64,000 bases of DNA, taken from the NCBI GenBank assembly GCA_903851195.1, contig CAINNJ010000006.1, positions 1 through 64,000 of the forward strand, in the 5' to 3' direction. Shown here in pieces: positions 27,184 through 32,479 of the stretch. A model generated the notes under the pieces. The model made no database searches, was not told the DNA's origin, and saw nothing but the letters and a program-made list of their open reading frames with translations. Both the position numbers and the translations under genes were made by a program. The stretch's first letter is position 1. Every line of letters starts with the position of its first letter. This DNA comes from an uncultured Acidobacteriia bacterium (GTDB lineage: Bacteria > Acidobacteriota > Terriglobia > Bryobacterales > Bryobacteraceae).

Positions 27184-28584
27184 ATGCGTTTTCTGGCGGT
27201 GGTGTTGCTTGCCGGGCTGGCCTCTTCGGCTTACGCTCAGCAGTTCGACCTCGTGGTGGCGAACGGACATGTCATGGACCCGGAATCGGGGCTGGACGCG
27301 GTCCGGAATATCGGCATCACGGGCGGTAAAATCCGGGCCATTTCGAAGAACCCACTGCGCGGCAAGGAGACCATCGACGCCAAAGGGCTGGTGGTGTCGC
27401 CGGGCTTCATCGATCTTCATTCCCACGGACAGGACGACGAGAATTACCGGTTCAAAGCCCGGGACGGCGTGACCACGGCGCTCGAGATGGAAGTGGGCGC
27501 GTGGCCGGTGGATGCCTGGTATAAGGCGCGCGAGGGCAAGGCGCTGGTGAATTTCGGCGCGACGGCGGGGCACATTCCGGCGCAGATGTCCGTAATGCAC
27601 GATACCGGCACGTTTCTGCCGCGCGACAACGCGGTGAGCCGCGCGACCACGAAGGCCGAGGCGCGGCAGATTTACGAGGACGTCAAGCAGGGGCTGAGCC
27701 AGGGCGCGCTGGGGATCGGGATGGGAATCGCCTATTTCCCGAAGGCCACGCGCGAGGAAATCTACGATCTTTTCACGCTTTCCGCGGAAAAGCATGCGCC
27801 GATTTATGTGCATATGCGGAATCCGGGGCCGGTGGAACCGGGCGTGGTGGATTCGCTGCAGGAAATGCTGGGAAATGCGGCGGCGACGGGCGCGTCGGTG
27901 CATATCGTCCACATCCCGAGCATGGCGTTCCGGCAGACGCCGCTGGCGCTCGACATGATCGACGGGGCGAAGAAGCGCGGGCTGGACGTCACGACCGAGT
28001 GCTATCCGTATACGGCCGGGATGACGGAGTTGCAGAGCGCGATTTTCGATCCGGGCTGGCAGGAGCGGCTGGCGATTTCTTATGGCGACCTGCAGTGGAC
28101 GGCGACGGGCGAGCGGCTGACGGAAGAGACGTTTAAGAAGTATCGCGCGCAGGGCGGGCTGGCGGTGCTGCATCATATGCCGGAGAACGTGGTGAAGCTG
28201 GCGGTGACGCATCCGGGCGTGATGATCGCGAGCGACGGGCTGAACATCGGGGGCAAGGGGCATCCGCGTTCGGCGGGGACGTATTCGCGTGTGCTGGCGC
28301 GGTATGTGCGGGAGCAGCGGGCGCTGTCTTTGATGGAGGCGCTGCGCAAGATGACGATTCTTCCGGCGCAGCGTTTGAATTTGAGTTCTATCGGACGGAT
28401 TAAGGTGGGCGCGGATGCCGATATTACGGTGTTCGATCCGGCGCATGTGGAGGATAAGGCCACGTACGAGAATCCGGCGGTGTATGCGGAGGGGATTCCG
28501 TATGTGCTGGTGAACGGCGTGCCGGTGGTGCGGAACGGGCAGTTACAGGGCGGGGTTTTCCCCGGACGCGGTCTGCGCCGATAG
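27184..28584 (+). CDS. Exported N-acyl-D-amino-acid deacylase-like amidohydrolase
   Basis: 466 residues with a signal peptide (MRFLAVVLLAGLASSAYAQ). The amidohydrolase (TIM-barrel, metal-dependent) fold shows GLVVSPGFIDLHSHG with the HxH metal motif, later His residues in YVHMRNPG and VHIVHIPS, and an Asp in MIASDGLNIGG. The overall shape matches D-aminoacylases and N-acyl-D-glutamate/aspartate deacylases, which release amino acids from N-acyl-D forms. The natural substrate here could be a peptidoglycan-derived compound. It starts three bases after purF, so it may be read from the purine operon although its product leaves the cytoplasm. Confidence 0.9.
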   Translation: MRFLAVVLLAGLASSAYAQQFDLVVANGHVMDPESGLDAVRNIGITGGKIRAISKNPLRGKETIDAKGLVVSPGFIDLHSHGQDDENYRFKARDGVTTALEMEVGAWPVDAWYKAREGKALVNFGATAGHIPAQMSVMHDTGTFLPRDNAVSRATTKAEARQIYEDVKQGLSQGALGIGMGIAYFPKATREEIYDLFTLSAEKHAPIYVHMRNPGPVEPGVVDSLQEMLGNAAATGASVHIVHIPSMAFRQTPLALDMIDGAKKRGLDVTTECYPYTAGMTELQSAIFDPGWQERLAISYGDLQWTATGERLTEETFKKYRAQGGLAVLHHMPENVVKLAVTHPGVMIASDGLNIGGKGHPRSAGTYSRVLARYVREQRALSLMEALRKMTILPAQRLNLSSIGRIKVGADADITVFDPAHVEDKATYENPAVYAEGIPYVLVNGVPVVRNGQLQGGVFPGRGLRR

Positions 28585-28929
28585 CAGTTCGACGGCCTGG
28601 CGGACGTTGGTTTTCCAGTCTTCGTAAAGATATTCGTCGACCGTGATGCGGATGGGATGGACCACGTCGTCGGCGGTCACCCAGATCATGTAGTCCTCGG
28701 AGTAGGTGTCTTTTTGCGTTTCGATTTCGACGTCGCCGGGGAAGAAGGCGCGAAGTTCGTTATCGATTTTTTCGCATTCGGGGGTGCGGATTTGTCCCAT
28801 GGGGTGGATGTAAGAGATCAGGATAGCGTGCGGGGGGAGGGCTCCGTCCAAGAACGTTGCAACTGCCGAGTACGTGGGGTGGGTTGATGAAATGCTCGTG
28901 CCCGTGATTCCGAAGATGGGATCGTTCAT
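28543..28929 (-). CDS. Hypothetical protein, acidic, unknown family
   Basis: From ATG 28929 (MNDPIFGITG) 128 residues follow. I do not recognise the family. The core IDNELRAFFPGDVEIETQKD, then YMIWVTADDVVHPIRITVDEYLYEDW, suggests an alpha/beta fold rich in acidic residues; no signal or membrane segment is seen. The last 14 codons overlap the end of the deacylase gene on the other strand. The gene belongs to the more AT-rich accessory stretch that includes the TcmP pair. Confidence 0.6.
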   Translation of the reverse strand: MNDPIFGITGTSISSTHPTYSAVATFLDGALPPHAILISYIHPMGQIRTPECEKIDNELRAFFPGDVEIETQKDTYSEDYMIWVTADDVVHPIRITVDEYLYEDWKTNVRQAVELLSAQTASGENPAL

Positions 28930-29011
28930 GCCGTCTTGAGGCACGCCGCGTTACGACGTTGATGTCAAAGTCCTTATCATGACTCGCGGTCATGGCATGC
29001 CCTGCGAAGCT

Positions 29012-29821
29012 TCAGGCAATCGCCAACTGCACCAGCCCGCCCTCGATTTCCAGGGCGTGCTGAAGCCTTAACCTCGTGGGCAGCACTGGATTCTCTGGCC
29101 GACGCGGGAATCCATCATAGGTTCTGCCGCGAAGCATTCGCCCAGCGGCTTTCTTGCGCACGCCGCCCCACTGCTTGAAAAAGAACGGGACCCCGGCGGC
29201 AGTGCATTGCTCTCGGATTGAAAGCACCCAAGACTCTTTCATCGGTCTGGCGCCAGGACCGCTTTCGCCACCGACAATGACCCATGAGATCCCCTGCAAC
29301 GAAATCTTCCCCAAGTCCTCGAGCAGCGGCTCTACGGACAGAAAACGAACGGCTGCAGGTGTCTCCTGCAAATTGGCAATTCTTGGCAAACCGTATTTCC
29401 GATCTTCTACGGAAACGCCCCACCAGATATGATCGTCGCCCGCAGCCTCCCGCAGCGCACCGGAAAGCAGTTCCCGCATCCGCTCGGAGCGTTTGGTGAG
29501 GACTTGGTAGGTATGCCAGCGCGCAAGCTGCATCGTGGCGACCACCCGCGAGATATATGGAAGCGGCACGCCGTCCTGAAACAAGTCGCTCATCGAATTG
29601 ACGAAAATCATACGTGGCTCGCTCCACCGTAATGGCTCCCCAAGCTTCTGATGAACAAGCCGCAAATCGAACCCTTGCTCGAAGGGATGCCCCTTCACAC
29701 CTCGGAATCGCTCGGAGAATCGTTCCGCATAGCAGTGCTTGCACCCGGGACTGATTTTGGTGCAGCCGCGTACAGGGTTCCATGTTGCATCGGTCCATTC
29801 AATTTTCGAATCCAGTGACAT
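29012..29821 (-). CDS. DUF5131 (phage Gp37/Gp68-type) three-Cys-motif protein
   Basis: 269 residues. The N-terminus IEWTDATWNPVRGC...PGCKHCYAE is the family hallmark: three Cys at residues 20, 27 and 30 (Cx6Cx2C) that resemble a radical-SAM-like cluster site without the canonical CxxxCxxC spacing. Other landmarks are MIFVNSMSDLFQDGVP, QVLTKRSERM, WWGVSVEDR, FLSVEPLLEDLG and WVIVGGESGPGARPM, then FFFKQWGG. Members occur in phages and mobile islands, usually next to TcmP, which is the gene directly upstream here (seven bases). The biochemical role is not established. The last 35 residues diverge from the typical end. Confidence 0.92.
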   Translation of the reverse strand: MSLDSKIEWTDATWNPVRGCTKISPGCKHCYAERFSERFRGVKGHPFEQGFDLRLVHQKLGEPLRWSEPRMIFVNSMSDLFQDGVPLPYISRVVATMQLARWHTYQVLTKRSERMRELLSGALREAAGDDHIWWGVSVEDRKYGLPRIANLQETPAAVRFLSVEPLLEDLGKISLQGISWVIVGGESGPGARPMKESWVLSIREQCTAAGVPFFFKQWGGVRKKAAGRMLRGRTYDGFPRRPENPVLPTRLRLQHALEIEGGLVQLAIA

Positions 29822-29828
29822 CGTCTTT

Positions 29829-30677
29829 CTACCAATTGAAGCCGGTCTGATCGGTACTGTACTTCAGAACATCGTCCCAGAATTCATACGCTCTCACGTG
29901 TCTTGAGAATAGCGCGAGATAGTATAGATGCAAATTCTTCTCATCGGACCTGACCTGCTTCATCCGGTCCAAAGGCGACTTGAGGTACTGAAGAGATTCC
30001 ATGCTGGAAGAAAATTCGGTGGCCAGAAACTGCCTGAATTCTCCCTTGCGGGTGCCGATTGCCCTCCAACGATCCCTCCACGCGGTGTTGCCGAGTGCCT
30101 CATCGATCTTTGTCGAGTTGCCATCGACGTAATGATCATAATTGCGGCCGGCATCCATTCCGACCGCAAGCAGCACCAAAAAATCCATGAAGTACTTCGA
30201 CAGTCTTCTGATGGTCTCGAACTTAATCCCAAAATCGAACGGGTCCACCATGCAGAGGCTTAACACCTTGTTATTTGCGGACGCCTTCGGAATCTCAGCG
30301 CAAATCTTGTCAATCTCGGCATCGCAGTCGCCTTGGATGTATACAACGTTCGCCATAGGAGCGATTCTTTTGACGCGAGTTCTTAGCGCCTGAAGAAGTT
30401 CCGGGTCTTCCTCACAGAAAATGTACTTATCGAAGGGATCTTCCACTGTCAACGCGATCAGCGGTGAGCCCTTCAGGAAAGTGTTTGTACCGGCAATCCT
30501 ACTGTATCCGGCTCCGGAATACAGGTCTATATAGACCCGCTGATCCCACTTCTTTTTCATGCCCGTGGCGAACAACTTGTCGTAAAGGCCGATCAGGCGG
30601 TATTTTGTCTCCGCCCAGCGGCGAACTTCAGGGCATGGCAGCCCATCATTTCCTTCCGGGAAACCACCAGGTTCCAT
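29829..30677 (-). CDS. tcmP: Three-Cys-motif partner protein TcmP
   Basis: 282 residues from ATG 30677 (a GTG at 30680 is equally possible). The fold looks like a class I methyltransferase/nucleotide-binding Rossmann domain: YIDLYSGAGYSRI in place of motif I, IFCEEDPELLQALRTRV as strand 2, VVYIQGDCD as strand 3, and LCMVDPFDFGIKFETIRRLS as a motif-IV-like DPF strand. The N-terminal helix WAETKYRLIGLYDKLF is typical of TcmP. It is coupled to the DUF5131 gene, the usual partner. Base composition is clearly richer in A and T than the flanks, which suggests horizontal transfer. Activity is unknown. Confidence 0.9.
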   Translation of the reverse strand: MEPGGFPEGNDGLPCPEVRRWAETKYRLIGLYDKLFATGMKKKWDQRVYIDLYSGAGYSRIAGTNTFLKGSPLIALTVEDPFDKYIFCEEDPELLQALRTRVKRIAPMANVVYIQGDCDAEIDKICAEIPKASANNKVLSLCMVDPFDFGIKFETIRRLSKYFMDFLVLLAVGMDAGRNYDHYVDGNSTKIDEALGNTAWRDRWRAIGTRKGEFRQFLATEFSSSMESLQYLKSPLDRMKQVRSDEKNLHLYYLALFSRHVRAYEFWDDVLKYSTDQTGFNW

Positions 30678-30805
30678 CACTGATAAAACATTCTACGCCC
30701 TCTGCGTTTCAAAACTACAAATACGACAATTTTCTCCTCCGAAGAAAAATGTCCGGAACCAATTGCGGGGCGTCGGTAGTGGCTGGGTCTCGAGAAGGAC
30801 CCGCA

Positions 30806-31054
30806 CTATTCGAATTCGCCTTTGAGCCAGGCTTCGAGTTCTTCGTCCGTCTGGGGACCAACATGCCAGTTGGGATCCCGAATAATGATCTTGTCTTTCA
30901 TGGTTCCGAATCTGCGCGGCTTCGGCCGGACGGATCGCGTGGGGACGAGGTCGACGACAGGCTCTCCATCCCGGCAGATGGTGATTTCCTCGCCATCGAG
31001 AACAGTTTGCACCAGTTTACCGAGATCTCCTGCGTCGGTCAGGTTTACGGTCAT
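30806..31054 (-). CDS. Phd/YefM-type antitoxin, no adjacent toxin
   Basis: The start at 31054 follows a GGGGAG site; 82 residues result. The N-terminal prevent-host-death fold is visible: MTVNLTDAGDLGKLVQTVLDGEEITICRDGEPVVDLVP. The tail TDEELEAWLKGEFE would wrap a toxin. A PIN or Doc/RelE toxin normally follows within a few bases, but here the next 125 bases are non-coding and lead to tcmP. It may be an orphan repressor or the scar left where an island entered. Confidence 0.87.
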   Translation of the reverse strand: MTVNLTDAGDLGKLVQTVLDGEEITICRDGEPVVDLVPTRSVRPKPRRFGTMKDKIIIRDPNWHVGPQTDEELEAWLKGEFE

Positions 31055-31093
31055 ATGCTCCCCTGAGGCCATTGTAGCCATGATTAATGGATC

Positions 31094-32479
31094 CTATTTC
31101 CTCCGCTTTTTCCCCTTGTGTCCGGCCGGCACCGGATAGCCGCCCTTCACCGCTTCGTCCGGCATCGTGACGTCCATCTTGCTGAGGATGCGGTCCCGCA
31201 CCCAGTGCGGGTCCCACCATTCCACCGCGTTCACCTGCACGCCATCCACCTGCATGGTGAAGTGCAAATGGTCCCCGCCCGCCAGGCCGGTCATGCCGGT
31301 CTTCCCAATAATCTGGCCCTTTTTCACCATGTCGCCCTTCTTTACCAGGAACTCGCTCAGGTGGCCGTAAATCGTCTGGAGACCGAAACCATGGTCGATC
31401 AGAATGCAGTTGCCGTAGATGCCGAGACGTTCGGCGAACAGCACGCGCCCGTCATTGGAAGCCGGAATCGGGGTGTGGGAGACCTTGGCGAGGTCGAAGC
31501 CGAGGTGCGTCTGCTCATCCACTTTCTTGCCCTGCCATGTGTACGTGCGGTCGTCGGCGAAGCGGGATTCCACGGTGGAATCGACCATGGGGAGGAAGGC
31601 GCCGGTCCAGAGGAATTTCTGTTCGGTCTGGAAACGGAGGTCGGCGAGCGTCTTGTTGTTCTGCTTGCGCATCTCCTGGTTGATCTGAATAAAACGCTGC
31701 ACCAGATCGCCCTTCAGTTTGCCTTCCGGATCGATGCCGTTCACCATCCGTTCCAGATTCATGGATTCGAGCGCGATGGTGCTCTTGCGGAACTGCTTCG
31801 GGAACACTTTGTACCAGAAACCCGCTTTGGCCGTGGCGCCGGTAGGATTGCCGGCGAAGACCGAGATCGGCGTATCCGTCGGCAGTGACCAAAAGAGCGC
31901 GAAGAGGCTGAAGTACTGGCCTGGATGATTGGGCAGGGGGAAACTGCGGAAGGTCTGGTCGCCGACTTTGACGCCGGCCTCGGTCCAGGCGCCGGAGGGC
32001 GTGAAAGTCACCATCTCCGTGCCGCCCTGATTGATGTAGTGCTGGACGCCGTCTGCCACCACCTGCGGGGGCGCGGTCATCACGTCCACGTCGAAGGCGA
32101 TGCTGTCGCTCTTGCCGCGAAAGTCGTTGGAAACGGCCGCCACCACCACACGCGCTTTGCCGTCATGCAGTTCGGGCGCGGTCTGCTTGCCGATCTTCAC
32201 GTTCAGGTCGGTGGCGGGCACGTTGCGCTTCGGGAAGAAGCTCTGTTCCTTGGCCTGAAAGACGCGGCTTTCGTGGGATTTGCCGTCCTGCTGCACGTCC
32301 ACGGTGATCCAGCGAACGCCGTGGGAATTTTCCGCGTGAATATGAAGAGGTGTTTCAAAGCCGATGACCTTCGGCGCCGGATCGACCTTCAGAGCGGTGT
32401 TGGTCGAGAGAACAAGTAAACTCAGCGGAAACATCGCCAGTAAGACGACGACAGCCACGATCGCAAGGATGATTTTCAA
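31094..32479 (-). CDS. M23/LytM-type metallopeptidase with N-terminal anchor
   Basis: 461 residues. A single N-terminal membrane segment (about residues 3-26) would anchor it in the inner membrane. Residues 30-330 form beta-rich domains of unknown role. The LytM domain is C-terminal: THLGFDLA supplies the first zinc His and Asp, GNCILIDHGFGLQTIYGHLSEF the core, and GGDHLHFTM the HxH pair. An intact site implies cleavage of peptidoglycan cross-bridges, or an envelope scaffold role. The end GHKGKKRRK is strongly basic. It lies 15 bases downstream of the S9 peptidase gene. Confidence 0.92.
   Translation of the reverse strand: MKIILAIVAVVVLLAMFPLSLLVLSTNTALKVDPAPKVIGFETPLHIHAENSHGVRWITVDVQQDGKSHESRVFQAKEQSFFPKRNVPATDLNVKIGKQTAPELHDGKARVVVAAVSNDFRGKSDSIAFDVDVMTAPPQVVADGVQHYINQGGTEMVTFTPSGAWTEAGVKVGDQTFRSFPLPNHPGQYFSLFALFWSLPTDTPISVFAGNPTGATAKAGFWYKVFPKQFRKSTIALESMNLERMVNGIDPEGKLKGDLVQRFIQINQEMRKQNNKTLADLRFQTEQKFLWTGAFLPMVDSTVESRFADDRTYTWQGKKVDEQTHLGFDLAKVSHTPIPASNDGRVLFAERLGIYGNCILIDHGFGLQTIYGHLSEFLVKKGDMVKKGQIIGKTGMTGLAGGDHLHFTMQVDGVQVNAVEWWDPHWVRDRILSKMDVTMPDEAVKGGYPVPAGHKGKKRRK

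Follow-up and report, generated by a model that had tools for sequence, protein, structure and literature searches.

The locus studied here raises the question of what DUF5131 and TcmP, two protein families encoded as a widespread gene pair, do together. We found no measured activity for either family in print, no paper using the term DUF5131, and no characterized member of either, hence none with the housekeeping role that the first-pass annotation of this DNA had named as a refutation (bioRxiv preprints lay outside the scope of the search). TcmP has table entries in two papers, one as SMa2243, alongside hna (SMa2245), in a set of genes that change with NolR (PMC12445080), and one in a prophage inventory (PMC12429752); a term search of the main text of the DefensePredictor paper returned neither family (PMC13092281). 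What had been a vague co-occurrence can now be put as claims open to test, concerning the key residues, TcmP as the component that sets the target, and the two proteins acting as one complex.

The gene pair and its probable insertion site

The window, by which we mean the entire 64,000-nucleotide stretch of DNA analyzed, contains one such pair on its minus strand. TcmP (three-Cys-motif partner; positions 29829–30680, 283 amino acids, GTG start) precedes DUF5131 (phage Gp37/Gp68 family; positions 29012–29821, 269 amino acids) in the direction of transcription, with a gap of 7 bp. DUF5131 matches PF07505 with 327.5 bits (cut-off 28.9; residues 5–239, model positions 2–243 of 243). TcmP, a short form of its family, matches TIGR04474 with 116 bits (curated cut-off 53; model positions 2–260 of 263) and no Pfam family at an E-value of 0.1, hence neither RlmJ nor a wHTH domain. 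These matches confirm the pair named in the first-pass annotation, which had placed it at 29012–30677. The source genome, that of a soil bacterium, holds a single copy of each gene.

Both proteins match component models of the PADLOC candidate PDC-M41 (TcmP-like PDC-M41A, E-value 6.3e-20; DUF5131 model PDC-M41B, E-value 1.1e-101), an assignment that rests on the component models and on adjacency rather than on PADLOC system rules. PDC-M30B matches DUF5131 equally well (E-value 2.6e-101), and no defense gene adjoins the window copy, the neighbors being aminoacylase-like, M23 and S9 genes. PADLOC PDCs are candidates obtained by “guilt-by-embedding” and are mostly unvalidated (PMC12988326, citing a preprint). 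What the window carries is a real copy, probably mobile, of a candidate defense pair that is widespread and uncharacterized.

The pair has a GC content of 54.2%; of the 1247 overlapping segments of this size in the 64 kb, segments over the pair counted, 18 do not exceed this value. The two genes have a GC3 of 0.64–0.65, compared with 0.76–0.83 in the five flanking genes measured. The drop in GC against the flanks that had been noticed at the outset is real; the “AT-richer island” is just ∼2.3 kb long and includes an orphan Phd-like gene foreign to the nearest pairs.

An empty site is found in G009, whose two flanking genes come closest to those of the window among the relatives (80 and 82% protein identity). 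Blastn similarity between the window and the matching site in G009 (L107) ends at position 28800 and restarts at 31134, which defines an extra stretch at about 28801–31093 (∼2.3 kb, the M23-side end being uncertain by some tens of bases). In G009, whose genome contains no DUF5131 or TcmP match, the start codon of a small gene of unassigned function directly abuts the M23 stop codon; in the window the insertion splits this small gene (28543–28800, minus strand) from M23. The two genes are within 98 bp of each other in G002 and within 4 bp in G010, and the remaining relatives have them on separate contigs or gave no match to the small gene. G018 has a pair on its M23 contig, at a distance of ∼55 kb from M23. 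The pair looks to have been inserted here as a movable unit. Loss in G009 instead of gain in the window is the formal alternative, yet three genomes show the close arrangement of small gene and M23. The earlier reservation that the pair might occupy this place in all relatives does not apply: G009 lacks it, and its distribution in the genus is patchy. A housekeeping role common to the genus was rejected because, of 19 genus genomes, 10 have DUF5131 and 6 have TcmP.

The mobile unit probably consists of the two genes, because the loci of the four nearest pairs share only these. In these pairs (L118, L119, L120, and L109), DUF5131 and TcmP are 79–84% and 64–72% identical to the window proteins, respectively. 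Their DNA similarity to positions 28501–31500 of the window is confined to the two genes (29023–30647 at its widest), and tblastn with six other window proteins gave no match in the DNA of these loci (L109 spans just 3.3 kb). The insertion also holds a Phd/YefM-like antitoxin-like gene (30806–31081, minus strand; 14.4 bits to PF02604, under the cut-off of 29.8), which is probably outside the two-gene unit; no toxin ORF was seen between it and TcmP. We considered the Phd-like gene and the small gene as system components and rejected both, as the nearest-pair loci share just DUF5131 and TcmP. A promoter scan found none, and the insertion ends carry no repeats forming a clear target duplication.

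A stretch 65% identical to the Phd-like gene occurs in G004. Profile searches returned no family for the small gene, whose listed ORF runs to 28944. Its relatives align from residue 42–63 on, one from residue 28. The 48 upstream codons of the listed ORF probably derive from inserted DNA, and translation probably begins at 28800, given the position of the start codon in G009.

Predicted folds and putative active sites

The AlphaFold2 model of DUF5131 (pLDDT 91.8) is a partial TIM-barrel with three conserved cysteines after strand 1, as in the fold that defines the radical SAM superfamily. The best solved fold is that of spore photoproduct lyase (SPL; Foldseek E-value 3.2e-4; VIA-align Z 13.2–13.4 over ∼195 residues at ∼3 Å, the closest at Z 13.4, 195 residues, and 2.9 Å). 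SuiB, viperin, and RlmN follow (Z about 10.5–11.3; RlmN 10.7), and radical SAM enzymes fill the first 31 rows listed by VIA-align (Z 8.9–13.4), a listing that does not exclude other families. SPL shares three closely spaced cysteines with DUF5131 but has the canonical CX3CX2C motif, which is absent from DUF5131, where the spacing is CX6CX2C (Cys-20, Cys-27, and Cys-30). This site, part of the first description of the locus, is invariant in 68 of 68 aligned and 93 of 93 paired sequences, and 14 of 15 other positions checked are likewise invariant in the paired set.

DUF5131 is linked to SPL by fold alone, because profile methods do not connect the two: hhalign against 19 SPL-family proteins gave a probability of 0.5% with a shallow DUF5131 profile (Neff 2.8), and there is no SPL Pfam match. 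Searches of the PDB sequences with the single protein and with a profile gave no lead for DUF5131, and a comparison of DUF5131 and TcmP profiles found nothing. A further likeness is to TIGR04471 (NCBIfam radical SAM mobile pair protein A), by name also one half of a mobile pair, which DUF5131 matches over residues 15–217. The score is 73 bits, far under the 355-bit cut-off, so that DUF5131 is not a member, and TcmP matches no model of the TIGR04471 pair. From its model and its retained putative cluster cysteines, DUF5131 is a probable radical-SAM-type enzyme.

The TcmP model (pLDDT 83.4) bears out the methyltransferase-like fold read from the sequence beforehand together with the DPF motif, which is Asp-146, Pro-147, and Phe-148. 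Its best match is RlmJ, the 23S rRNA m6A2030 methyltransferase of E. coli (Foldseek E-value 4.1e-7; Z 14.5, 211 residues, 3.6 Å), which other Rossmann methyltransferases trail by only 1–2 Z. A profile of 60 TcmPs found RlmJ among the PDB sequences with a weak E-value of 0.0027, and the window TcmP alone gave no lead there. TcmP differs from RlmJ in motif (DPF versus DPPY), in sequence (∼15% identity, no RlmJ Pfam match) and, unlike RlmJ, in being found beside DUF5131.

In RlmJ, Glu-118, Asp-143, Ser-100, and Asp-164 touch the cofactor, and mutation of Asp-164 or Lys-18 abolishes activity (PMC3814359). Several cofactor residues and the catalytic Asp-164 align with TcmP: MAFFT places Asp-52, Gly-56, Gly-58, Asp-118, and Asp-146 of TcmP on Asp-40, Gly-44, Gly-46, Asp-143, and Asp-164 of E. 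coli RlmJ. HMMER aligns Glu-90 with RlmJ Glu-118 and the window motif GSPLIA with GSPLIA of RlmJ, whereas MAFFT places Glu-90 on Glu-110, not Glu-118. Lys-26, located within the first helix of the TcmP model (residues 22–40), falls on His-13 in the MAFFT alignment, not Lys-18. Among 93 TcmPs with a median identity of 19%, Gly-56 and Asp-146 are invariant, and Lys-26 (92 of 93) and Asp-52 (90 of 93) nearly so. The motif IV Asp is followed by Pro in 77 of the 93 sequences and by Gln in 15, which makes m6A chemistry doubtful for part of the family. A GMT-wHTH domain was found in 13 of 60 TcmPs scanned and no other Pfam family in those 60 (E-value 0.001). TcmP is probably a SAM-dependent methyltransferase, predicted to be of class I, with RlmJ as the nearest m6A enzyme.

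Pairing and partner exchange

The two families had been described as usually adjacent. TcmP is present at 68 of the 80 best DUF5131 loci in the genome collection, in 67 cases within 150 bp (1.6 kb off in L179), and at 35 of the 80 best viral-contig DUF5131 loci, always adjacent. Such adjacency is no accident. Of 18 TcmP match places in 41 relatives (DUF5131 in 25, TcmP in 14), 16 are beside DUF5131; a single broken copy in G021 accounts for the remaining two. In a Latescibacterota MAG (L165), which is counted among the 67, a single frame of 634 residues comprises DUF5131 (residues 75–320) and TcmP (residues 327–633). Adjacency and this natural fusion support the joint function proposed at the outset.

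DUF5131 also occurs without TcmP, at 12 of the 80 best genome loci and at 45 of the 80 best viral loci, where many of the TcmP-less copies are longer DUF5131 proteins. Nine neighbors at the 12 genome loci yielded no TcmP with NCBIfam, and a looser TcmP profile gave one weak match at these loci, ∼2.9 kb away (L184). Thermotoga maritima, a control genome, has DUF5131 and no match to the TcmP model, which argues that a solo role of DUF5131 exists. The broken copy in G021 (G021:C212:6129-6822; L037/L038) is a frame-split TcmP of the window subtype, ∼67% identical over 191 residues, on a contig without a DUF5131 match, and is apparently decaying. The TcmP model has a match below its cut-off in E. 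coli.

We compared the two partners in 93 pairs drawn from the 160 loci (80 best genome and 80 best viral) plus G000 and G014. TcmPs shorter than 231 or longer than 479 amino acids or not above 100 bits, gaps of 600 bp or more, and the L165 fusion were left out, and from loci with two TcmPs we used the TcmP separated from DUF5131 by the smallest gap. ORFs begin at the first possible start codon, so that ORF overlaps are inflated. Gene order varies, with TcmP downstream in 46 pairs, upstream in 30, and on the opposite strand in 17.

Median pairwise identity is 53% for DUF5131 versus 19% for TcmP, and the correlation between the distances of the two is only weak (Mantel r 0.28, p 0.001; Spearman 0.10). 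TcmP cluster changes 31 times on the DUF5131 tree, compared with a possible minimum of 4 for five clusters and with 38–50 (mean 43.7) in 300 shuffles, and there has therefore been some co-inheritance and much exchange. Resolution of the tree is weak, with 38 of 90 branches open, and the exchange argument thus leans on close DUF5131 pairs. Where DUF5131 is at least 75% identical, TcmPs come from different clusters in 15 of 42 comparisons (88 pairs, TcmP clusters of three or more); in L189 and L193, DUF5131 is 92% identical and TcmP 15%. Mere loss of constraint on TcmP fails to account for this pattern, because the residues with a putative role in cofactor binding and catalysis are retained in TcmP. 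The constant/variable pattern would be best explained if TcmP were a specificity subunit swapped in an arms race. Our searches did not find in print the combination of RlmJ-like and SPL-like folds, the conserved residues, the fusion and, above all, the pattern of constant core and exchanged partner.

Neighborhoods and possible functions

The reading we prefer, with confidence evenly divided, is that the two genes form a module that spreads horizontally and modifies nucleic acid, most likely in defense against phages or other mobile elements. TcmP would be the variable subunit that selects the target, and it is probably active as an RlmJ-like (m6A) SAM-dependent methyltransferase. DUF5131 would be the constant catalytic partner and may perform radical-SAM-type chemistry on the base selected or methylated by TcmP, so that both enzymes would act on the same base of an invader's DNA or RNA. 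The fullest version of this scheme is quite unlikely as it stands: swappable methyltransferases would mark a chosen base, probably at adenine N6, and the near-invariant radical SAM enzyme would convert the methyl group or the base into a further modification or a lesion that blocks the invading nucleic acid. Such two-step chemistry, if true, would be a new type of nucleic acid modification in immunity.

We inspected 12 annotated plasmid regions with the pair and seven phage regions with DUF5131, hand-chosen for diversity and not random, with no control set. In five of the 12 plasmid regions the pair is beside defense genes: a type ISP restriction enzyme gene overlapping TcmP, two Abi genes, DUF262 genes, a methyltransferase-helicase-GIY-YIG set, and DUF3375/DUF4194/ATP-binding genes, which we take to be Wadjet components. 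The other seven have no clear defense gene adjoining: one has a large DNA methyltransferase gene, three have integrases or transposases, two DNA repair or replication genes, and one an S24 peptidase and a transposase. The search of neighborhoods for defense islands suggested with the first description therefore has a mixed outcome, some pairs lying by restriction, Abi or Wadjet-like genes and others not.

DUF5131 occurs in 402 plasmid and 161 phage records, and TcmPs near enough to that of the window for tblastn in 6 plasmid records and, as weak matches, in 2 phage records. In three of the seven phage regions, from the temperate Gordonia phages ThankyouJordi, Bosnia, and Easley, the pair is located between integrase and immunity repressor, with a profile-confirmed TcmP abutting the repressor in each. 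This region is expressed in lysogens and is a usual place of prophage defense genes. A Synechococcus phage combines DUF5131 with a shorter TcmP, and the remaining three regions have no TcmP annotated beside DUF5131 (two neighbors were tested, neither being TcmP).

A PADLOC scan of 123 neighbors of 14 pairs matched 172 model families versus 16 for 123 control genes, which indicates a direction only and is not a count of defense genes, because the models are redundant, few proteins are behind them (any family is matched by at most 3 of the 123 test genes; 25 of the 172 families were listed), and the control regions also contained defense genes (SspG and SspH). After removal of genes encoding more than 1200 amino acids, the test genes were taken from 144 within 8 kb of the pairs and the controls from 124 that lie in 14 other regions of these genomes. 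HmaA flanks the pair in G031, and among ten hand-picked neighbors of other pairs PADLOC matched one. The first-pass proposal that phage and island distribution suggests defense or nucleic acid modification is consistent with part of the neighborhoods and with the PDC-M41 models, and both roles are candidate roles.

The foremost alternative, unlikely in our judgment, is lesion repair or de-modification. DUF5131 would reverse a DNA photoproduct or a host-made modification, TcmP would find or prime the lesion, and the pair would protect mobile DNA rather than attack invaders. SPL as the nearest DUF5131 fold (Z 13.2–13.4 versus 11.3 for the next radical SAM enzyme) points this way, as do the 161 phage records, error-prone polymerase and PolY genes by one pair, RadC and SSB adjoining another on a plasmid, and the S24 peptidase gene, presumably LexA-like, that overlaps upstream on one plasmid. 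A fold match shows no function, however, the SPL profile comparison was empty, restriction and Abi genes neighbor other pairs, and the hypervariability of TcmP would suit an arms race better than repair. As to these plasmids, the S24 peptidase gene and the start of DUF5131 share 4 bp in Comamonas (L327:4366-5004), hinting at damage- or repressor-controlled expression, and in Burkholderia glumae (L330) a TcmP/DUF5131/TcmP arrangement is found between another radical SAM gene and the polymerase genes.

We consider abortive infection, in which the pair would modify host rRNA or tRNA by RlmJ- or RlmN-like chemistry on sensing a phage and so halt translation, to be improbable. An rRNA methyltransferase is nearest to TcmP, RlmN is among the folds near DUF5131, and the integrase-repressor position in three temperate phages would suit such a system; but we saw no consistent third gene or antitoxin, the Phd-like gene is foreign to the nearest pairs, and the GMT-wHTH domain in some TcmPs hints at DNA binding. 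Least probable of all is a role in marking the element's own DNA, as epigenetic immunity or restriction-evading hypermodification with no attack function. DUF5131 is on plasmids, phages, and viral contigs, in some with DNA methyltransferase genes nearby. Against this role, a chromosomal copy reduced to the two genes, as in the window, leaves no larger element to protect, and partner exchange would presumably alter the mark.

Some loci have two TcmPs per DUF5131. In L287, L289, L329, and L330 the two TcmPs differ from each other, an arrangement reminiscent of methyltransferases that work in pairs, one subunit being catalytic and the other binding.
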